DNA of 10,904 nucleotides from Flavobacteriaceae bacterium (GTDB lineage: Bacteria > Bacteroidota > Bacteroidia > Flavobacteriales > Flavobacteriaceae). Position numbers and translations under genes: made by a program. Below are positions 1-10,904 of this stretch, piece after piece. The notes beneath the pieces were generated by a model that was given only the letters and a program-made list of their open reading frames with translations, did no database searches and was not told the origin of the DNA. Each line of letters opens with the position of its first letter. The first letter of the stretch is position 1. The DNA is taken from positions 1-10,904 of the forward strand of contig JAUVCP010000035.1 of NCBI GenBank assembly GCA_030590765.1. Reading direction: 5' to 3'.

Positions 1-1815
1 ATAGCAGCAAATCGTGGGAATGTTTATACGTCTGATGGTAGTTTGCTGGCAACTTCAGTATCAAAATTTGATATCAGAATGGATGCTGTTACAATCTCCG
101 ACAGTGATTTTGAAAAAGGCATAAAAGGTTTGAGTAAGTCACTTTCTAAGATGCTTGGTAAAAGTGCAGGTTATTATGAAAATAAGATCCGTAAAGCCAG
201 AGCAACCAAAAATCGATATTTATTTATCACCAGAAACCTGAGTTATAATGAGTATCTCATATTAAAGAAGTTTCCGATTTTTAAATTGGGTACATATCGT
301 GGTGGTTTTATTGTTGAACAAAGAACTGTACGTGAGCATCCCATAGGAAAAATAGCAGAAAGAGCAGTTGGTTATGATGATTACCGTGGAAAAGTTGGAA
401 TTGAGGGTAGTTTTTATGAGTTTTTAAGAGGAAAGAACGGAAAAAGATTAAAACAAAAAATTGCTAAAGGTCAGTGGAAACCTTTAAATGATAATAACGA
501 AATAGAACCTATTGATGGTAGAGATATTATTACTACAATTGATCTGAACATTCAGGATGTTGCTCATCATGCATTATTAGGACAGTTAGAGAAATTTAAA
601 GCCGATCATGGAACTGTTGTTGTAATGGAGACAAAAACAGGTGAAGTTAAGGCTATTTCTAATTTAGGAAGAACTTCAAAAGGAACCTATTACGAGCAAA
701 GAAACTATGCTATTTATGAAACTTATGAGCCTGGCTCCACTTTTAAATTGATGGGAATGGTGGTTGCTTTAGAAGATAAAGTAATTGATACTTCCAGTAT
801 TATAGATACAGAAAAAGGGGTGATATATTTTCATGGAAAAAGAGTAAAAGATTCTCATCATGGTGGTTATGGTAAAATTTCTGCAGCAAGGGTTTTTGAG
901 ATTTCCTCAAATGTAGGAGCAGTAAAAATTATCAATGAGCATTACAAAGACGATCCAAAGAAATTTGTTGCCGGACTGAAAAAAATGAATATCGATAAGA
1001 AAATTGGTTTGCCCATAAAAGGAGAAGGTACACCATTGATACCAGATCCAAAGGATAAAAAAAAATGGAATGGACTTTCATTGCCATGGATGGCTTATGG
1101 TTATGGAGTAGAGCTTACACCTTTGCAAATATTAACTTTTTACAATGGTATAGCTAATAATGGAGAAATGGTAAAACCGAGGTTTGTTAGAGAAATAAGA
1201 ACCCAAAGTAATGTAATCACAAAATTTGAGAAGGAGGTCATAAATCCTAAGATCTGTTCACAGGAAACCATTGATAAAGTGAAAGTAATGATGGAAAATG
1301 TGGTAAAAAGAGGCACGGCTACCAATATTTATGATAAAAATTTTTCTATGGCAGGAAAAACAGGAACCGGTCAGACCGAGTACTGGACAGATCAAACAAA
1401 ATATGTGTCATCATTTGTTGGTTATTTCCCAGCGGATGAACCAAAGTATTCTTGTATAGTAGTGATACATAAACCTGATAAGAAGATTGGCTACTATGGT
1501 AATATAGTTGCTGCACCGGTATTTAAGCAAATTGCAAATAAAATATATTCAGATACTCCCAAGCATGAAAGTGTGGAGTTTTCATCCCAACTGGCTTCAT
1601 TGGACGATAGTTTTAACGACTACTTTGAAAAAGCAAATAAGAATTATAAGCAAGTACCTAATGTAAAAAATATGCCTGGTATGGATGCAATTTCTTTACT
1701 TGAAAATTTAGGTTTTAAAGTAGGTTTTAGTGGTATAGGAAAAGTAAGATCTCAGTCCGTTAAGCCCGGAAAACAATTTGAAAAAGGAGAATTAATCATA
1801 TTAAATCTATCGTAG
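1..1815 (+). CDS. ftsI: Peptidoglycan D,D-transpeptidase FtsI (class B PBP), 5'-partial
   Basis: Division-specific class B penicillin-binding protein that cross-links septal peptidoglycan in the periplasm together with FtsW. The frame is open from the first base, so the start and the N-terminal membrane anchor lie upstream; a TTG at 43 is internal, because the codons before it already encode the family-typical RGN-x-Y-x-x-DGSLLA segment. In the 604 visible residues the three active-site motifs are present: STFK with nucleophile Ser near residue 246 (bases 736-747), SSN near 302 (904-912) and KTGT near 453 (1357-1368). A single PASTA domain occupies about residues 551-604, as in many Bacteroidota FtsI proteins. 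It ends in TAG seven bases before murE, so the two are probably co-transcribed. No lesion is seen, although the lipid II it ultimately uses depends on the damaged genes downstream. Confidence 0.95.
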   Translation: MAANRGNVYTSDGSLLATSVSKFDIRMDAVTISDSDFEKGIKGLSKSLSKMLGKSAGYYENKIRKARATKNRYLFITRNLSYNEYLILKKFPIFKLGTYRGGFIVEQRTVREHPIGKIAERAVGYDDYRGKVGIEGSFYEFLRGKNGKRLKQKIAKGQWKPLNDNNEIEPIDGRDIITTIDLNIQDVAHHALLGQLEKFKADHGTVVVMETKTGEVKAISNLGRTSKGTYYEQRNYAIYETYEPGSTFKLMGMVVALEDKVIDTSSIIDTEKGVIYFHGKRVKDSHHGGYGKISAARVFEISSNVGAVKIINEHYKDDPKKFVAGLKKMNIDKKIGLPIKGEGTPLIPDPKDKKKWNGLSLPWMAYGYGVELTPLQILTFYNGIANNGEMVKPRFVREIRTQSNVITKFEKEVINPKICSQETIDKVKVMMENVVKRGTATNIYDKNFSMAGKTGTGQTEYWTDQTKYVSSFVGYFPADEPKYSCIVVIHKPDKKIGYYGNIVAAPVFKQIANKIYSDTPKHESVEFSSQLASLDDSFNDYFEKANKNYKQVPNVKNMPGMDAISLLENLGFKVGFSGIGKVRSQSVKPGKQFEKGELIILNLS

Positions 1816-1822
1816 TTAAACC

Positions 1823-3286
1823 TTGAAAAATTTAAAAGACATACTATATAAAACAGGGATACAATCGGTTGTAGGTACAACTGATCTGTTGATAGATGCT
1901 ATTGCATTTGATTCAAGGAAAATAGTAGATAATTCTTTATTTGTTGCGCAAAAAGGTATTGTTTTTGATGGCCATCAATTTATTGAAACAGCAATAGAAA
2001 AAGGTGCTGTTGCAATAATTTGTGAAGTACTTCCTGTTAATTTTAGGTCAAGTATCACTTATGTTAAGGTAGATGATTCCAATGATGCACTTGCAATTGT
2101 TGCTGCAAATTTTTATGATAATCCATCATTAAAATTAAAACTAATTGGTGTTACCGGTACTAACGGGAAAACTACAATTACTACCTTGCTTTATAGGCTT
2201 TTCAAAAAGTTGAATTATAAAAGTGGTTTACTTTCTACTATAAAGATCATGATTGATGAAGAAGAGATAAAAACCACACATACTACTCCAGATTCCTTAA
2301 AATTGAACAAAGCTCTTTATCAAATGGTATCAGCAGGAGTTGAATATTGTTTTATGGAGGTAAGCTCTCATGGAATTCATCAAAAAAGAACAGCAGGTTT
2401 GTATTTTGAAGGTGGAATTTTTACAAATCTTAGTCATGATCATTTAGATTATCACAAAACCTTTGCAGAGTACAGAGATGTCAAAAAATTATTTTTTGAT
2501 CAATTACCAAAAACATCCTTTGCGTTGGTAAATATCGATGATAGGAATGGCTTGGTAATGATTCAAAATACAAAAGCAAAAAAATATACCTATGCCTTAA
2601 AAACAGTTGCTGATTATAAGGCAAGAATAATTGAAAATCAATTTGACGGGCTTTTATTAAATGTTGATAATCAGGAAGTATGGTCAAAATTAATAGGAAA
2701 TTTCAATGCATATAATCTGTTGGCAATTTATGCAACTGCTGATTTGTTGGGACAAGATAAAATAGAAGTTTTGCGAATTGTAAGTGAATTGGAAAATGTG
2801 GATGGAAGATTTCAACATGCTATTTCAAAAATGGGAATAAGTACTATTGTTGATTATGCACATACGCCGGATGCTCTAAAAAACGTATTGGAAACTATAG
2901 AAACCATTCGAACTCATAATGAACAGGTAATAACAGTTGTAGGTTGTGGAGGAGACAGGGATAAGACCAAAAGGCCAAAAATGGGAAATATTGCTTCTGT
3001 TTTAAGTAGTCAGGTGGTTTTTACCTCTGATAATCCAAGAAGTGAAGATCCAGATAAGATCATTGAAGAAATGGAGGAAGGTGTACAGCCCGAAAATTAT
3101 AAAAAAACTATTTCCATCACCAATAGAAAACAAGCGATAAAAACAGCGTGCAAGCTAGCAGAAAAAGGAGATATCATATTGGTTGCCGGAAAAGGTCATG
3201 AAACCTATCAGATTATTGGTGATGTAAGATCTGATTTTGATGATTTTAAAATTGTGAATGAGTTACTAACCGAAATGAATAAATAG
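1823..3286 (+). CDS. murE: UDP-MurNAc-L-Ala-D-Glu:meso-diaminopimelate ligase MurE (TTG start)
   Basis: Cytoplasmic ATP-dependent ligase that adds the third stem residue to UDP-MurNAc-dipeptide. At 487 aa it is full length. The Mur ligase layout is intact: an N-terminal UDP-substrate domain (about 1-90), a central ATPase with P-loop GTNGKTT at 112-118, [17 protein letters not shown], a YRDVK segment whose Lys221 fits the carbamylated lysine of the family, and a C-terminal ligase domain with [10 protein letters not shown]. The DNPR motif at 403-406 is the established mark of meso-DAP specificity. The start is TTG at 1823: an in-frame TAA lies at 1817-1819, and the following residues ([10 protein letters not shown]) match the usual N-terminus of flavobacterial MurE, so a later start is unlikely. 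It lies 4 bases before mraY. It looks functional, but its substrate is made by MurC and MurD, which are missing or broken here. Confidence 0.96.
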
Positions 3287-3290
3287 AGAG

Positions 3291-4523
3291 ATGTTATATT
3301 ATTTATTTGACTATTTTGATCAACATTTTAGCCTATCGGGAGCGGGATTGTTTCGATACATTTCTTTTCGCTCAGCCATGGCATTTTCCTTTTCTTTATT
3401 GCTTTCCACAATTTATGGTAGAAAGATCATTGATAAATTAAGGCGTTTACAGGTGGGTGAATCTATTCGGGATCTGGGATTGAAAGGTCAGGTTGAAAAA
3501 ACCGGAACACCAACAATGGGAGGTCTGATCATCATATTTGCAACATTGATCCCCGTGTTTCTTTTTGCAAAGTTGCATAATATTTACATCATTTTATTGA
3601 TAGTTACTACCTTATGGATGGGAGCTATTGGTTTTATAGATGATTATATCAAAGTTTTCAGAAAGAACAAAGAGGGTTTGCAAGGCAGATTCAAAGTAGT
3701 AGGTCAGATCGTTTTAGGAGCCTTTGTGGGTTTTGTTCTTTATTTCAATCCGGATGTGGTTATAAAAGAAAAAATAAGAGGGGAGCAGATTGTAAAAATA
3801 GAGCAATTAACAAATTACAGAAGTGATTTTACCGAGGCACACAAATCAACAAAAACTACCATTCCTTTTATAAAGAATAACGAATTAGATTACGCCAGTT
3901 TGATCAATTGGATGGGAGAAGGATCTAAAGATTATGTATGGCTGGTTTTTGTTTTGATAGTAATATTTATCATAACAGCCATTTCAAACGGAGCAAATTT
4001 AACAGATGGAATTGATGGTCTGGCTGCAGGTAGTTCTGCTATAATTGTTCTGGCTTTAGCTGTTTTTGCATGGGTATCGGGTAATATCATTTTTGCCGAC
4101 TATTTGGATGTAATGTATATACCTAACTCTGGTGAGTTAACTATTTTCCTTAGCGCATTTGTTGGAGGTTTGATTGGGTTTTTATGGTATAATACCTATC
4201 CGGCACAAGTATTTATGGGAGATACTGGGAGTTTGACAATAGGAGGGATCATTGCGGTTTTGGCGATTGCTGTTCGAAAAGAATTGCTTTTACCAATATT
4301 AGCAGGTGTCTTTTTGATTGAGAATTTATCAGTAGTGATGCAGGTTTCTTATTTTAAATATACAAGAAAAAAGTATGGTGCAGGAAAAAGAATATTCTTA
4401 ATGTCACCATTGCATCATCATTACCAAAAGAGAGGCTATCACGAAAGTAAAATCGCAACACGATTTTGGATCGTAGGAATTTTACTGGCGGTAATTTCTA
4501 TAGTAACATTAAAAGTAAGATAA
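3291..4523 (+). CDS. mraY: Phospho-MurNAc-pentapeptide transferase MraY
   Basis: Integral membrane enzyme that transfers phospho-MurNAc-pentapeptide to undecaprenyl phosphate, giving lipid I on the inner face of the cytoplasmic membrane. At 410 aa it is longer than the E. coli enzyme (360 aa) because of a polar insert around residues 155-205, which I regard as usual in Bacteroidota. Hydrophobic segments are spread along the protein, consistent with the ten-helix family fold. Key motifs are intact: TPTMGG, the Asp pair D117-D118 in [24 protein letters not shown] with D311, and the His cluster H375-H377 before [10 protein letters not shown]. The ATG follows the murE stop by 4 bases, implying coupled expression. 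After its stop there is only a 26-base A-rich leader before the murD remnant. No sign of decay. Confidence 0.96.
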
Positions 4524-4549
4524 ACAATAACAAATAAACAAATAAATAA

Positions 4550-5098
4550 ATGAGTATTTCAGCTTTTGCCTTGCAAACTAAATTTAATGTAAAAAATGCC
4601 ATGGCATCTCACACTTTACATGACCTTATGAAAGTTCGGAAAGAAACGATAAGAGAATCTATGGCAGATTTTGAACATGAAGAACATAGGTTGGAGGATG
4701 TCTTGAGAATTAATGGTGTACAGTATATCAATGATTCAAGAGCTGTGAATGTAAATGCTACTTTTTATGCTTTAGAGAGTGTTGAAACTTCCATTATCTG
4801 GATAGCAGGTGGAATCGATAAAGGTAACGATTATGAACCTTTATTACCCCTTGTGAATGAAAAGGTAAAGGCTATTATTTGTTTAGGTCATGACAACCAA
4901 AAACTAATTGAAGTTTTTGGGAATACAGTTGATTTTATGATCGAGACAGATAGAATAGAAGATGCTGTAAAAATTGCTTATAAATTATCTGATGGTGGAG
5001 AGTCGGTTCTTTTGTCTCCTGCCTGTGCAAGTTATGATCTGTTTGAAAATTTCGAAGAAAGAGGAAAATTATTTAAACAAGCTGTACGACAACTATAA
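4550..5098 (+). pseudogene. murD: MurD remnant: C-terminal part of UDP-MurNAc-L-Ala:D-Glu ligase
   Basis: Intact MurD (about 440 aa) adds D-Glu to UDP-MurNAc-L-Ala. Only 182 codons remain here: the end of the central domain and the C-terminal ligase domain. By alignment from memory to E. coli MurD, Asn271 corresponds to N16, Arg302 to R47, Asp317 to D62, Lys348 to K91, Ser415 to S161 and Phe422 to F168, so about 255 N-terminal residues (the uridine-binding domain and the P-loop ATPase core) are gone. The frame is open and ends with the typical SPACAS-x-D-x-F motif. Several conserved positions differ: Q-T-K-F-N where Q-G-K-H-N is usual (T10, F12), and NDSRAVN where NDSKATN is usual (R64, V66, the positions of E. 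coli Lys319 and Thr321). A normal-looking A-rich leader and an ATG sit right at the break, so it may be translated, but it cannot be a complete ligase. An expressed standalone domain with another role is possible but unsupported. Confidence 0.88.
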
Positions 5099-5120
5099 AA
5101 CAATACTGGTATAAGTATTT

Positions 5121-6323
5121 ATGACACAATTATTTGAAAATATAAAAGGAGATAAAACCATTTGGGCAATTATTGCTATTCTGGCTATATTTTCATTTTT
5201 ACCTGTGTATAGTGCAAGTACAAATCTTGTATATGTTGCTGGTATAGGAAGCACATTTGGTTATTTATTCAAACATGCCATGTTGCTGTTAGTGGGCTTT
5301 GGAATTGTGTTTGCCATACATAAGATTCCGTACAGGTATTTTAGTGGTTTGTCGGTAATAATGTTACCGGTTGTGGTTGTATTGTTGATAGTTACTTTAA
5401 CACAGGGTACAGTAATTAGTGGTGCCAATGCAAGTAGGTGGATCAGAATTCCTTTTGTTGGAGTTGGTTTTCAAACTTCCACTATGGCCGCTGTCATATT
5501 AATGATCTATATTTCAAGGTATTTAGCCCGAAATAAGGATAAGAAAATAGAACTTAAAGAAAGTTTTTTGACTTTATGGTTGCCCGTAGGAGTAATTTTA
5601 GCATTGATCTTACCTGCTAATTTTTCAACCACAGCTATTGTATTTACAATGGTAATGTTGCTGGTTTTTCTTGGCGGATATCCATTCAAATATATAATGT
5701 TAATCCTTGGAGTAGGGGTTTTAGCATTTTCCATATTTATTTTAACCGCAAGGGCATTTCCTGATACTATGAAAAATAGCAGGATCAGTACCTGGTCAAA
5801 TCGTATTGAAAATTATATGTCTGGTAATTCTGAAGATAATTATCAGGCCGAAAAGGCAAAAATTGCTATAGCATCAGGAGAAATATATGGAAAAGGTCCT
5901 GGAAAAAGTGTGCAAAAGAATTTTTTACCTCAATCTTCCTCCGATTTTATTTATGCTATTATTGGTGAAGAATTTGGTATAGTGGGTGCGATTTTTATCA
6001 TTCTGTTATACCTAGGTCTGTTGTTTAGAATTGTGATCATAGCAACAAAAACAAAAACTATTTTTGGTACTTTACTGGTGCTGGGTGTTGGTTTGCCAAT
6101 AGTTTTTCAGGCATTGATTAATATGGCTGTTGCAGTAGGATTATTTCCGGTAACGGGGCAACCACTACCGTTGATAAGCACAGGTGGAACTTCTATTTGG
6201 ATGACCTGTTTTGCTATTGGAATTATTCTTAGTGTTAGCGCAGCCAATAAAAAAGATGTGATTCCGGCTGTTAAAGATGAATTTGAAAACCCTTTAGATA
6301 TTTTACATGAAGCAGTTGGTTAA
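5121..6323 (+). CDS. ftsW: Peptidoglycan glycosyltransferase FtsW (SEDS family)
   Basis: Polytopic membrane protein of the SEDS family that polymerises lipid II into glycan strands at the septum, working with FtsI. At 400 aa with about ten hydrophobic segments it is full length. Seen motifs: GANASRWI followed by GFQTST (the region of the family's FQPSE-like motif; the T-S-T form is in my recollection normal in flavobacteria), the catalytic Asp in [11 protein letters not shown] (D275, matching E. coli D297), and [11 protein letters not shown] near the C-terminus. It starts 22 bases after the murD remnant. Its last 17 bases overlap the start of murG in another frame, suggesting translational coupling. 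It appears intact although MurG, which makes its substrate, is interrupted. Confidence 0.95.
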
Positions 6324-7413
6324 AATATTATTAAGTGGTGGCGGCACGGGAGGTCATATTTATCCGGCAATATCTATCGCCAATGAATTGAAAAGAAGAT
6401 TTTCGAAAACTGAATTTTTGTTTGTAGGAGCAAATGACAGAATGGAAATGGAGAAAGTACCTCAGGAGGGATATAAAATAATAGGATTAAATATTGCAGG
6501 ATTACAACGGAGTTTAACTCTTAAGAATTTTGCATTTCCTTTTAAATTGATACATAGTTTGATAAAGGCAAAACAGATTGTAAAAGATTTTAATCCGGAT
6601 GTTGTAATTGGTACCGGTGGATTTGCATCTGGACCAACTTTGTATATGGCAAATCAAAAAAATATCCCTACGCTAATCCAGGAGCAAAATTCATTTCCAG
6701 GTGTAACGAATAAATTACTTGCAAAAAAAGCAAAGAAAATATGTGTTGCGTATAGTGGTTTGGAAAAATATTTTCCAGAAGAAAAAATTATTAAAACAGG
6801 AAATCCGGTAAGGCAAGATCTTTTAAAGATATCTGAAAAACAAGAAGAAGCAATATCTTTTTTCGGACTGGACAAAAACAAAAAAACTTTGGTTGTTTTA
6901 GGAGGAAGTCTTGGGGCAAGAGTAATCAATCAAACCCTTGAGAAGAACATGGATTTTATTTTAGTTAAGGATTTTCAGATCATTTGGAAATCGTGTAAAC
7001 TGTAAATTGAAGAGTATAAAAATTATAAAGAATTTAAAGGTGTAAATGTACATGCTTTTATCAAAAACATGGATTTGTTATATGCAGCAGCAGATGTGAT
7101 GATAAGCAGAGCTGGAGCCGGAACTATTTCTGAATTATGCATAGTAGGGAAACCGGTGATTTTTATTCCTTCGCCAAATGTTGCAGAAGACCATCAAACT
7201 AAAAATGCGATGTCGATTGTAAAGAAAGATGCTGCCGTTATGATCAAAGAAAGTGAGTTGGATACTTTTAGAGAAATATTTGCTGGGTTGGTGGAAGATA
7301 AAGTAAAAAGAGATTCCTTATCGGCAAATATCAAATCTCTGGCGCTACCAGATGCAACAGAACAAATTGTTGATGAAATTGAAAAAATATTGATTAATAG
7401 AGATAAAAAATAA
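6307..7413 (+). pseudogene. murG: MurG (lipid I GlcNAc transferase) interrupted by an in-frame TAA
   Basis: MurG is the membrane-associated GT28 glycosyltransferase that adds GlcNAc from UDP-GlcNAc to lipid I, giving lipid II. Ignoring the stop, the frame spans 368 codons, the normal family length. The N-terminal half has [11 protein letters not shown] (residues 11-21), [17 protein letters not shown] and GGSLGA. The C-terminal half has [10 protein letters not shown] and the [13 protein letters not shown] donor-binding region. A TAA at 7003-7005 (codon 233) splits them, and both halves are in the same frame, so this is a nonsense change and not a frameshift. In related proteins as I recall them this spot reads W-Q-x-G-K-L-Y; here it is W-K-S-C-K-L-stop, so a usually conserved Gly is also Cys (codon 230). 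An ATG at 7069 opens the second half but is an internal Met. A 232-aa product would lack most of the UDP-GlcNAc-binding domain. A sequencing or consensus error at the TAA cannot be excluded. Confidence 0.9.
7003..7005 (+). other. Premature stop codon within murG
   Basis: TAA at codon 233 replaces what is normally an aromatic residue (Tyr in the relatives I recall, a one-base change from TAT or TAC). Other genes in the window use TAA (mraY, murD remnant, ftsW, ftsQ, ftsA) and TAG (ftsI, murE) as real terminators, so the codon is not reassigned here. No in-frame start lies close behind it; the next in-frame ATG is at 7069. Confidence 0.9.
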
Positions 7414-7421
7414 GAAGGATA

Positions 7422-7454
7422 AAGGCCTTTTCCCTAAAAACAAAATAAGGCCTT
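7422..7454 (+). terminator. Stem-loop just after murG, possible terminator
   Basis: The 8-base palindrome AAGGCCTT occurs at 7422-7429 and again at 7447-7454, giving an 8-bp stem with a 17-base AT-rich loop. It begins nine bases after the murG stop codon, a typical position for an intrinsic terminator. The downstream bases (AAAATTATTTG) are only weakly U-rich, so termination efficiency is uncertain. If active, it would separate ftsI-murG from ftsQ-ftsA-ftsZ. Confidence 0.45.
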
Positions 7455-7482
7455 AAAATTATTTGTATGCTAAATACTTTGT

Positions 7483-7543
7483 AAACTATGGCAATCTGTT
7501 GAGATAAATAAAGGGGATTATTTTTTTTTGATTGTCATAGTTT
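7483..7543. repeat. Imperfect inverted repeat with 14-base arms upstream of ftsQ
   Basis: The left arm AAACTATGGCAATC (7483-7496) is matched by the right arm GATTGTCATAGTTT (7530-7543): 13 of 14 positions are Watson-Crick complementary, and the remaining one is a G-T pair that would be a wobble in RNA. The 33-base loop contains GGGG and the T9 run. The right arm ends 12 bases before the ftsQ ATG. It could be an RNA hairpin in the ftsQ leader, an operator, or the remnant of a small inverted-repeat element; no target-site duplication is obvious. Confidence 0.7.
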
Positions 7544-7555
7544 TAATAACGAAAA

Positions 7556-8281
7556 ATGAAGAAATATATTATACACATCAAATTTTTACTACTAATTATA
7601 TTGGTTGTGTCTTTATATGGATTTGCATCACATAGAAATAGTACCAAGATCAGTAAAAATTTTGATGTAGTTTTTGAAAACGGAAATAACCTGTTTATTA
7701 GCTATGAAACGGTTAATAAGTTGTTAATACAAAAGTTGGGCACTGATAAAATTCAAACAAAAGAAAATATAAATTTGAATAATTTAGAAAATTTCATTCA
7801 AACCAATAAAATGATTGAAAATACTGAAGTTTTTCTAAAAATTAATGGGGATTTAGGCGTAATTATTAAACAAAGAACACCAATTTTACGGGTTGCGAAT
7901 AACTCAAAATCTTATTATCTGGATAGGTTAGGGGAAATTATGCCTTTATCTGATAATTATTCGGCCAGAGTTCCTGTTAGTTCAAGTGATATAGGAGAGA
8001 ATAATAGTAGTGACATCATATATTTGGCCAATCAAATTAAAGATGACGTTTTTTTACGAAAGCAGATCATCGGAATTAGCCAAAAAGACAGTACAAATCA
8101 ATTTGAATTGAAAACCCGTATAGGAGATCAGGTTATTCTGTTTGGTAGTTTGAATAACATGCGAAATAAATTCAATAAATTAAAAGTCTTTTATCAAAAA
8201 GTGATTGCTGATAGCACTCTTAATCATTACAAAACTATTGATTTGAAGTATAAAAATCAGGTGGTTTGTACAAAAAAGTAA
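7556..8281 (+). CDS. ftsQ: Cell division protein FtsQ
   Basis: Single-pass division protein of the FtsQ/DivIB family, which bridges early (FtsA-FtsZ) and late (FtsW-FtsI) divisome parts. At 241 aa it is short, as usual in flavobacteria. A signal anchor lies at about residues 9-25 after a basic start (MKKYIIHIK), placing the rest in the periplasm. A POTRA-like region follows (about 35-105, ending in IKQRTPILRV), then SYYLDRLGEIMPLSDNYSARVPV and a C-terminal beta region with YKTIDLKYKNQVVCTK, which I recognise from flavobacterial FtsQ. The ATG at 7556 is preceded by an A-rich stretch and no clear Shine-Dalgarno. It stops 3 bases before ftsA. It is intact, so the genes downstream of the murC gap are not affected by decay. 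Confidence 0.92.
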   Translation: MKKYIIHIKFLLLIILVVSLYGFASHRNSTKISKNFDVVFENGNNLFISYETVNKLLIQKLGTDKIQTKENINLNNLENFIQTNKMIENTEVFLKINGDLGVIIKQRTPILRVANNSKSYYLDRLGEIMPLSDNYSARVPVSSSDIGENNSSDIIYLANQIKDDVFLRKQIIGISQKDSTNQFELKTRIGDQVILFGSLNNMRNKFNKLKVFYQKVIADSTLNHYKTIDLKYKNQVVCTKK

Positions 8282-8284
8282 AGT

Positions 8285-9589
8285 ATGGAAAATAATAACA
8301 TAGCCGTTGGATTGGATATCGGAACAACTAAAATTGTTGCGATGGTTGGTAAACATGATGCCTATGATAAAATAGAGGTTTTGGGAACCGGTAAAGCTAA
8401 AAGTCTTGGTGTACACCGTGGTGTAGTCAATAATATTACCCAAACCATACAATCCATACAGCAGGCAGTTGATGAGGCTGAAAGTGCTTCTGGCGAGAAA
8501 ATAAAGGAGGTTGTTGTTGGTATTGCCGGACAGCATATTAGAAGTTTGCATCATAGCGATTATATCACTCGTTCAAACTCTGAGCAGGTTATCGATGAGA
8601 ATGATATTGAAAGGTTGATCAATCAGGTTTATAAACTGGTTATGCTTCCCGGTGAAGAAATTATCCATGTTTTACCACAAGATTTTAAAGTAGACGGTCA
8701 GGCCGAAATTAAAACGCCTATCGGAATGTACGGAGGCAGACTGGAAGCAAATTTCCATGTTGTGGTAGGCCAGGTTTCATCTATTAGAAATATTGGGAGA
8801 TGTATAAAAAGTGCCGGTCTTGAATTATCCAGTATTACTTTGGAGCCACTGGCTTCAGCTGATGCGGTTTTAAGTCAGGAAGAAAAAGAAGCAGGAGTTG
8901 CCTTGATAGATATTGGTGGAGGGACAACAGATCTTGCAATTTTTAAAGATGGTATTATTCGTCATACTGCCGTGATCTCTTTCGGAGGTGGTATGATTAC
9001 CGAAGATATCAAAGAAGGTTGTTCTATAATTGAAAAGCAGGCAGAGCTATTAAAAACAAAATTCGGATCAGCATGGCCCGGTGAGAATAAAGATAATGAA
9101 ATAGTTTCTATTCCTGGCTTGCGTGGAAGAGAACCAAAGGAGATTACCCTTAAGAACCTTTCAAAAATTATTCATGCTCGAGTTCTTGAAATAGTAGAAC
9201 AGGTGTTTTTAGAGATAAAGAATTATGGACATGAAGAATCAAAGAAAAAATTAATTGCAGGAATTGTTCTCACAGGTGGTGGCGCGCAATTAAAGCATAT
9301 CAAACAGCTGGTGGAATATATTACCGGTATGGATACTCGAATAGGATATCCGAACGAACATTTGGCAAGCAATTCTGATTCTGAGTTGTCAAGTCCCTTA
9401 TATGCAACGGTGGTTGGATTGTTGATGAAAGGATTAAAAGATAAAGATAAAATGAATGAGGTAGTTGAAGAACCTATTGAAAAGCCAAATACATTCACTG
9501 AGAAGTCTAGACCTAAGATGAAACCCAAAAAATCAATTTTTGAAAAATGGGGTGAAAAGTTTAGAGATTTTTTAGACAACGCTGAATAA
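8285..9589 (+). CDS. ftsA: Cell division protein FtsA
   Basis: Actin-like ATPase that tethers FtsZ filaments to the cytoplasmic membrane and recruits later division proteins. At 434 aa it is full length. Motifs: N-terminal phosphate-1 loop GLDIGTTKI (residues 9-17), the 1C-type subdomain region (about 85-165), phosphate-2 DIGGGTTD (209-216) and the adenosine loop VLTGGGAQL. The C-terminal linker is Lys- and Pro-rich and ends in FEKWGEKFRDFLDNAE, an amphipathic helix fitting the membrane-targeting sequence. It follows ftsQ by 3 bases and precedes ftsZ by 43 bases. No lesion seen. Confidence 0.96.
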   Translation: MENNNIAVGLDIGTTKIVAMVGKHDAYDKIEVLGTGKAKSLGVHRGVVNNITQTIQSIQQAVDEAESASGEKIKEVVVGIAGQHIRSLHHSDYITRSNSEQVIDENDIERLINQVYKLVMLPGEEIIHVLPQDFKVDGQAEIKTPIGMYGGRLEANFHVVVGQVSSIRNIGRCIKSAGLELSSITLEPLASADAVLSQEEKEAGVALIDIGGGTTDLAIFKDGIIRHTAVISFGGGMITEDIKEGCSIIEKQAELLKTKFGSAWPGENKDNEIVSIPGLRGREPKEITLKNLSKIIHARVLEIVEQVFLEIKNYGHEESKKKLIAGIVLTGGGAQLKHIKQLVEYITGMDTRIGYPNEHLASNSDSELSSPLYATVVGLLMKGLKDKDKMNEVVEEPIEKPNTFTEKSRPKMKPKKSIFEKWGEKFRDFLDNAE

Positions 9590-9632
9590 AAACCAATTAA
9601 GAAAAAGTAAAACCTAATAAATAAAAAAAGTT

Positions 9633-10904
9633 ATGAGCGCAGAATTTAACAACATATCTTTTGATTTGCCAAAGAATCAATCTAATGTTATTAAAGTAAT
9701 CGGAGTTGGAGGTGGAGGTAGTAATGCCGTAAACCATATGTTTAAAAAAGGTATCAAAGGAGTTGATTTTGTGGTTTGTAATACTGATGCTCAGGCCTTG
9801 AACAGCAGTCCTGTTCCGTCAAAAATTCAATTAGGAGCAACTTTGACCGAAGGATTGGGAGCTGGAGCAAATCCTAAAATTGGTGAGCAGTCTGCCATGG
9901 AAAGCATGGAAGATATAAAGAATATGCTCAATACCAGAGCTAAAATGTTGTTTATTACTGTTGGAATGGGAGGAGGAACCGGAACAGGTGCAGCTCCAAT
10001 CATTGCTAAAATAGCCAAAGATCTGGATATCTTGACTGTTGGTATAGTTACAATACCTTTCTCATTTGAAGGAAGAACCCGAAATGAACAAGCGCAAAAA
10101 GGTATTGATAAATTAAGAGAATGTGTTGATTCATTGGTGGTTATCAACAATAATAAATTACGAGAGGTTTATGGTAATTTAGGTTTTAAAACTGGTTTTT
10201 CAAAGGCTGATGAGGTTTTAGCAACTGCGGCTACAGGAATTGCTGAAGTGATCACGCATCACTATACACAAAATATTGATTTGCGAGATGCAAAAACAGT
10301 TCTTTCTAATAGTGGAACTGCTATTATGGGATCGGCAACTGCATCAGGTTCAAACAGAGCGCAAAATGCAATTACTACAGCCTTGGATTCTCCTTTATTG
10401 AATGATAATAGTATTGAAGGAGCTAAGAATGTATTATTGTTAATTGTTTCAGGTAAAACTGAAGTGACCATAGATGAAATTGGAGAGATCAATGATTATA
10501 TACAATCTGAAGCAAAATCAAATGTTGATATAATCATGGGAGTTGGTGAAGATGAGTCATTGGAAGATTCTATTTCGGTAACCGTTATTGCCACCGGTTT
10601 TAATCCGGAACAGCAAAAAGAAATTACAAAACTAGAATCTAAAAAGATCATTCATAAATTGGTTGAAGATAAAATAGCTACTCCTACTGTACAAAAAATT
10701 GAAATGCCTGTTCAATCCAAACTAGAAGTAATTAAACATGATCTTAAGGGGTTTGAAACAGAAGAGAAACCTACAGTAAAGCAGCCAGTTCAAAATACGA
10801 AAGATATAAATGTAGTTTATGAAGATGTAAGTTTAACCATTGAGGATGAGTTTGAGATTAAAACTGTAACACCAGTACAGGAACCGGAACAGGAAGTTGA
10901 AATG
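9633..10904 (+). CDS. ftsZ: Cell division protein FtsZ, 3'-partial
   Basis: Tubulin-like GTPase that forms the cytoplasmic division ring. The frame begins at ATG 9633 (MSAEFNNISFDLPKNQ) and stays open for 424 codons to the last base, so the C-terminus is outside the window. GTP-binding features are intact: VGGGGSNAVNHM, NTDAQAL, the tubulin signature GGGTGTG at residues 113-119, and the synergy loop NIDLRD at 214-219, which supplies catalytic acidic residues to the neighbouring subunit. After the globular core (to about residue 330) comes a long acidic and Pro/Val-rich linker, in line with the extended FtsZ tails of Bacteroidota; the FtsA-binding C-terminal peptide is not visible. The 43-base gap after ftsA is A-rich and shows no promoter I can support. 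Confidence 0.96.
   Translation, partial: MSAEFNNISFDLPKNQSNVIKVIGVGGGGSNAVNHMFKKGIKGVDFVVCNTDAQALNSSPVPSKIQLGATLTEGLGAGANPKIGEQSAMESMEDIKNMLNTRAKMLFITVGMGGGTGTGAAPIIAKIAKDLDILTVGIVTIPFSFEGRTRNEQAQKGIDKLRECVDSLVVINNNKLREVYGNLGFKTGFSKADEVLATAATGIAEVITHHYTQNIDLRDAKTVLSNSGTAIMGSATASGSNRAQNAITTALDSPLLNDNSIEGAKNVLLLIVSGKTEVTIDEIGEINDYIQSEAKSNVDIIMGVGEDESLEDSISVTVIATGFNPEQQKEITKLESKKIIHKLVEDKIATPTVQKIEMPVQSKLEVIKHDLKGFETEEKPTVKQPVQNTKDINVVYEDVSLTIEDEFEIKTVTPVQEPEQEVEM

Follow-up and report, generated by a model that had tools for sequence, protein, structure and literature searches.

A genus of Flavobacteriaceae with no recognizable murC and with murD reduced to a conserved C-terminal domain

Introduction

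The ligases MurC and MurD are generally presented as essential to bacteria that make peptidoglycan, and they are studied as antibiotic targets. Described systems close to the case considered here include the MurD2/MurL route of Xanthomonas, in which a MurD-type ligase reportedly still acts, and the murein peptide ligase Mpl. For Mpl of Psychrobacter, the excerpted text of the respective structural study gives rates of 0.7/min with L-Ala, 1.4/min with L-Ala-D-Glu and 260/min with the tripeptide (PMC3060825). Here we describe the dcw (division and cell wall) cluster in a stretch of 10,904 nucleotides from a Flavobacteriaceae bacterium (GCA_030590765.1, contig JAUVCP010000035.1, positions 1 to 10,904; hereafter the window), which is contig C347 of a genome bin (G000; 2.44 Mb, 400 contigs, 67% complete), together with the corresponding loci of its genus. 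In this genus, murC was not found and murD is represented by a remnant encoding its C-terminal domain. With the adjacent steps of the pathway conserved, a substitute probably exists, which raises the testable question of how the first two residues of the peptide are added. Judging from titles and abstract openings, we found no report of a lineage that lacks both MurC and MurD.

Loss of murC and truncation of murD across the genus

The genus was represented by 22 genomes (the bin containing the window and 21 relatives), and the sister set by genomes from 15 further genera of Flavobacteriaceae. The dcw loci were read in 17 genus genomes in addition to the window, in the 15 sister genera and in one genome of another family of the order; in the other four genus genomes (G005, G006, G007 and G010) the locus was not located, and the region taken from G005 contained no dcw genes. 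Fourteen of the genus loci, the window included, span the interval from murG to ftsQ. Many of these genomes are fragmented or incomplete, and the absences reported below rest on several of them together, chiefly on two genomes rated 100% complete, G011 in one contig and G013 in 10.

In all 18 genus loci, including that of the window, murD comprises 180–183 codons, whereas in 15 of 15 sister genera a full-length gene of 443–463 codons occupies the same place. The open reading frame (ORF) of the window, with 182 aa, matches only positions 265–441 of the 441-position TIGR01087 murD model (177.8 bits, below the cut-off of 211.95), and the spacer that separates it from mraY is 22–47 bases long across the genus loci. 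Furthermore, none of the 14 loci that span the interval has a murC between murG and ftsQ; in the window, this slot consists of 142 bases without any ORF of at least 60 aa. The same slot in 15 of 15 sister genera holds an ORF of 446–453 codons; these ORFs align with one another, and the one that was scanned is murC (347.9 bits vs the TIGR01082 cut-off of 335.1). Since the same place is affected in each readable genus locus, it is natural to assume that the loss occurred once, in their common ancestor.

A preliminary description of the window, made from its sequence alone, had reported a murD without its N-terminal part, the absence of murC from its expected place, an in-frame stop in murG and open flanking division genes, and had treated the three lesions as one set. 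Each of these observations holds, and all three lesions are indeed present in the contig, but they do not form a set: the losses of murC and murD are old and common to the genus, whereas the murG stop is private to the window (1 of 14 genus copies). The contention that the first two are not base-calling errors is borne out by their recurrence in the genus, and the comparison with relatives that was proposed there returned truncated murD and an empty murC slot in every genus locus that could be read for them, against full genes in the sister genera.

Three public records (L002–L004) show the same state, although L002 stops inside murG and informs on murD only; they belong to G021, G016 and G009 and are not additional genomes. 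When 80 loci were recruited with the remnant as the query, at least 200 open codons were present upstream of the domain in 75. The remaining five comprise these three genus loci, one locus cut by a contig edge and one, L070, with a frame broken upstream; L070 was rejected as a truncated murD from outside the genus, its central-domain sequence being still readable.

The dcw cluster of the window, in which ftsI (partial), murE, mraY, ftsW, ftsQ, ftsA and ftsZ (partial) are all open, is organized as follows.

1..1815, + strand: ftsI-type penicillin-binding protein gene, 5' end cut by the contig (ORF; same position in genus loci)
1823..3286, + strand: murE, complete and conserved (NCBIfam NF001126, 638 bits vs cut-off 373)
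3291..4523, + strand: mraY, complete (ORF; low dN/dS, see below)
4524..4549: spacer of 26 bases in place of the ~262 murD codons for the UDP-binding and ATPase domains of sister genera (ORF list, locus comparison)
4550..5098, + strand: murD remnant, stand-alone C-terminal domain, 182 aa (ORF, domain and model matches, alignments)
5121..6323, + strand: ftsW, complete (ORF, genus loci)
6307..7413, + strand: murG, frame broken by TAA at 7003–7005, both parts conserved (stop in 1 of 14 genus copies)
7414..7555: murC slot between murG and ftsQ, empty (without murC in 14 of 14 genus loci spanning it)
7556..8281, + strand: ftsQ, complete (ORF, genus loci)
8285..9589, + strand: ftsA, complete (ORF, genus loci)
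9633..10904, + strand: ftsZ, 3' end cut by the contig (ORF, genus loci)

Search for murC and murD elsewhere in the genomes

Intact copies of murC and murD in other parts of the genome had been considered as an alternative in the preliminary description. A MurC profile built from 16 MurC proteins of dcw clusters (15 of the family and one of another family) retrieved no orthologue in the 22 genus genomes, its matches (149.9 bits at best) being a 450-aa paralogue, discussed below, or other Mur ligases; MurC proteins of the family score 752–834 bits among the matches listed. A profile of the N-terminal and central domains of MurD (15 rows) likewise yielded only paralogues in these genomes, with 60.2 bits for the best of them, and no orphan domain of this kind. 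Relocated copies are thus not supported.

Proteins with the Mur_ligase_M domain number four in five of the six near-complete genus genomes with low contamination and five in the sixth, G004, compared with 5–7 in the 15 sister genera. The extra protein of G004, an 886-aa frame, was taken for a putative cyanophycin-synthetase-like protein. By sequence models, three of the four genus proteins are MurE, MurF and a MurC/Mpl-type ligase, and the fourth looks like FolC by its length and a partial match. The window's own bin has a single protein with PF08245, namely MurE.

Conservation of the pathway around the gap

The enzymes that act around the missing steps are retained. MurB, which serves the formation of UDP-N-acetylmuramic acid, is present in 17 of the 22 genus genomes and in six of the six near-complete ones, the glutamate racemase MurI, which supplies D-Glu, exceeds its cut-off in 19 of 22, Ddl is found in 19 of 22, and MurF in all seven genomes examined for it. 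Within the genus, the ratio of nonsynonymous to synonymous substitution rates (dN/dS) is 0.02–0.11 for murE, 0.01–0.06 for mraY and 0.03–0.09 for murG, and ftsW is likewise under purifying selection in the genus pairs; these ratios are rough because there were at most eight pairs per gene, with dS near or above 1 in many and some pairs missing or saturated.

Strong purifying selection acts on murE, mraY, murG and the murD remnant, and the cell appears to need the product of the MurC and MurD steps still. The loss of two adjacent steps despite this continuing demand points to replacement, and we suggest that the genus probably builds the affected part of its cell wall by another way. Relaxed selection on precursor synthesis, as advanced in the preliminary description, is at odds with the low dN/dS of the murD remnant, murE and mraY and with the retention of MurB, MurI, Ddl and MurF.

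The MurD remnant

The sole Pfam match of the remnant is PF02875, the C-terminal Mur domain (37.6 bits vs a cut-off of 28.4); by ORF analysis and Pfam scan, it has neither the N-terminal domain that binds UDP-MurNAc-L-Ala (UDP-MurNAc, UDP-N-acetylmuramic acid) nor the central ATPase domain, PF08245. Its start Met corresponds to an internal Met in 15 of the 16 full-length MurD proteins aligned. Because this position is Met in 33 of the 34 rows of the alignment, the start codon likely derives from an ancestral internal Met codon.

The 18 copies of the remnant contain no stop, and dN/dS is 0.03–0.10 in the genus pairs computed. Nevertheless, the remnant has diverged from its counterparts in sister genera far more than other proteins: its excess divergence (sister–sister minus genus–sister identity, the means excluding the sister genome G025 as an outlier) is 0.16, vs 0.01–0.06 for ten other proteins. 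Among columns conserved in the sisters, 14 of 90 are changed in the remnant, compared with 2 of 220 in MurE, 4 of 241 in the Mpl-type ligase described below, 5 of 146 in MurG and 11 of 149 in MurF (seven genus sequences only in the last case). The remnant is the most changed of these proteins but not the only one, and the alterations in MurF and MurG complicate a simple picture.

We take T321, K348 and S415 of Escherichia coli MurD to be D-Glu contacts, and N268, N271, R302 and D317 to lie on the ATP side. The equivalents of all three presumed D-Glu contacts are present together in 16 of 16 full-length MurD proteins and in none of the 18 remnants, where T321 is kept in one, K348 in seven and S415 in nine. 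By comparison, N271 and D317 are retained by all 18 remnants, N268 and R302 by 17, and K319 by 13. This pattern may be read as an old, single truncation, after which the protein took on a different duty and was then conserved. Our guess is that the remnant has been repurposed and, without catalytic activity, acts as a scaffold or regulator within the Mur/Fts machinery. Here, a domain has survived the loss of the rest of its enzyme and continues to be selected for.

A candidate replacement: the Mpl-type ligase

The 450-aa paralogue mentioned above, encoded outside the dcw cluster, is an Mpl-type ligase with three Mur domains (PF01225, PF08245 and PF02875), detected in 19 of the 22 genus genomes, with some of the copies partial. 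It is the best candidate by elimination because it is the only other enzyme seen that is expected to act on UDP-MurNAc. As the best explanation at hand, albeit one that we put forward tentatively and at less than even confidence, we propose that a preformed peptide is loaded on UDP-MurNAc by this ligase and that the MurD remnant has been repurposed. In a single step, the ligase would join preformed L-Ala-D-Glu, or the diaminopimelate (DAP) tripeptide, to UDP-MurNAc; in the case of the dipeptide, MurE would act next as usual. The simplest source of the dipeptide would be another ligase that joins L-Ala to D-Glu made by MurI, possibly helped by an enolase-superfamily enzyme resembling L-Ala-D/L-Glu epimerase. 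The remnant would no longer bind D-Glu in the manner of MurD and would persist as a conserved non-catalytic partner.

Several observations weigh against this proposal. No Mpl-type ligase was found in three genus genomes that are 67–84% complete, namely G018, G020 and the bin of the window. Where present, it falls below both relevant cut-offs (238.7 vs 335.1 bits for TIGR01082, murC; 165 vs 388.7 bits for TIGR01081, mpl), and for this reason its substrate is a guess; the TIGR01081 cut-off is exceeded in none of the 21 comparison genomes (15 of sister genera and six of other families). The ligase has barely changed in the genus, as the column counts above show, its divergence from the sisters is not unusual, and it is alike in sisters that have both MurC and MurD. 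Characterized Mpl uses the dipeptide poorly, according to the excerpted text of PMC3060825, and no dipeptide-making enzyme was found in the genus. The epimerase-like gene is only loosely associated with the loss: it is found in 18 of the 22 genus genomes (one match being partial) and in 5 of the 15 sisters, has no match in G005 and G009 and only distant ones (32–33%) in G002 and G010, and its product scores best to DgcA, another racemase, below the cut-off of that model.

With so loose an association, a gain of the epimerase together with the loss of MurC and MurD was not accepted. A pure L-Ala-L-Glu route completed by the epimerase was also set aside: it would make MurI useless, and the retention of MurI counts against it. 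A second strong D-Ala-D-Ala-ligase-like enzyme is absent from the matches listed for the genus.

An arginine-deiminase-like gene (Pfam) lies directly upstream of the Mpl-type ligase gene in G011 (L146:6976-7860), and the two adjoin in 9 of 16 genus loci vs 0 of 14 sister loci, in short flanks. This neighbour was considered and rejected, no role in ligation being seen. G021 encodes a second Mpl-type ligase (G021:C331; L110, L209), 72% identical to that of G011, which reads FIAIGG like most sister genera in place of FISIGG of the genus; this bin is 9% contaminated, and the second copy is probably contamination.

Alternative explanations

A ligase outside the Mur family, for example of the ATP-grasp or tRNA-dependent type, could have replaced MurC and MurD, or could make and attach the dipeptide, without involvement of the Mpl-type ligase. 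This would accommodate both the joint absence of two adjacent steps with their neighbours kept and the scarcity of change in the Mpl-type ligase, but we consider it rather unlikely: no candidate was found (ATP-grasp families other than Ddl were not searched), and strong Ddl matches, among those listed, number one per genome in 19 genus genomes. The remnant itself might instead be half of a split MurD and add D-Glu by acting in trans with N-terminal and ATPase domains that another Mur ligase provides, as its conservation in the operon place of MurD, its low dN/dS, its freedom from stops and the retention of the four presumed ATP-side residues in 17–18 of 18 copies would allow. Such an arrangement is improbable, however, with the full set of presumed D-Glu contacts seen in no remnant and no orphan MurD N-terminal or central domain found in 22 genomes, and it leaves MurC unaccounted for.

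Scavenging of muropeptides from other bacteria, with the Mpl-type ligase attaching the DAP tripeptide, has in its favour the retention of this ligase, the epimerase-like enzyme in 18 of 22 genomes and the tripeptide being the best known Mpl substrate (PMC3060825, excerpted text). We doubt it strongly all the same, as it would make MurE and MurI dispensable, whereas both are retained and MurE is closely conserved. Decay of the pathway under relaxed selection, to which the three lesions on one contig might point, is very unlikely in view of the purifying selection on murE, mraY, murG and ftsW, the retention of MurB, MurI and Ddl, and a murG that is free of stops in 13 of 14 copies. As for an assembly or sequencing artefact, which the incompleteness and 400 contigs of the window's bin could suggest, the same state recurs in further genomes of the genus, 17 for murD and 13 for murC, including G011 and G013. 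For these two genes, an artefact is scarcely credible: their state is not an assembly fault, and the possibility of faulty assembly raised in the preliminary description is excluded for them and still likely for the murG stop.

Against this background, loading of a preformed peptide by the Mpl-type ligase, with the remnant in another role, is the explanation that we tentatively prefer.

The stop codon in murG

The frame of the window murG is open on either side of the in-frame TAA at 7003–7005, the rear part as far as 7413. The residue aligned to the stop is Tyr in G016, and three codons upstream a Gly of G016 is replaced by Cys in the window; in G021, which is nearest to the window here, the sequence breaks off within murG. 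The dN/dS is 0.15 behind the stop vs 0.07 before it, a gap too small to separate a recent null from a base error. In our view, the stop reflects either a base error or a change at the level of the strain and is separate from the main finding; for the stop alone, an artefact is the likelier reading.

MurC in other genomes of the family

The MurC profile was also applied to 299 genomes of 203 genera of the family, all at least 90% complete except the window's bin. MurC was matched at E 1e-134 or better in 289, and the other ten had no MurC at 1e-20 or a cross-hit only (1e-43 or weaker in nine, among them G096 at 8e-40). Three of these ten belong to the genus described here (G000, G004 and G011); the other seven (G096, G157, G315, G172, G325, G222 and G245) represent five further genera (g72, g133, g148, g198 and g221), and G096 has 8% contamination. 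The replacement may thus be wider, or may have occurred more than once, with up to five further genera lacking MurC by profile. In two genera, g133 and g148, MurC is lacking by profile in both sampled genomes of each.

Separately, in another family of the order, the near-complete 1.7 Mb genomes G044 and G057 encode only four Mur_ligase_M proteins each, and no glutamate racemase match was obtained in G044 either (the search covered G044, not G057). They are possibly a second case.

Comparison with known systems

The likeness to the MurD2/MurL route, as Xanthomonas is said to use it, lies in a non-canonical placing of D-Glu at position 2. The genus differs in that neither a MurD ligase nor MurC was found in it and that glutamate racemase is kept. 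Compared with MurD itself, the remnant aligns with E. coli MurD (1e0d) at 259–435 and occupies the same place in the operon, but it differs in the missing UDP-binding and ATPase domains, in the score below the model cut-off and in the lost residues of the D-Glu site. The genus ligase resembles Mpl in its three Mur domains; it has F-A-H where Haemophilus MurC has Y-G-H, and it is without the two Arg said to bind the amino acid in MurC, both as described for Mpl in the excerpted text (PMC3060825). It differs by its score, 165 bits against the 388.7 required by the mpl model, and is a paralogue whose ligation of a peptide to UDP-MurNAc is a prediction.

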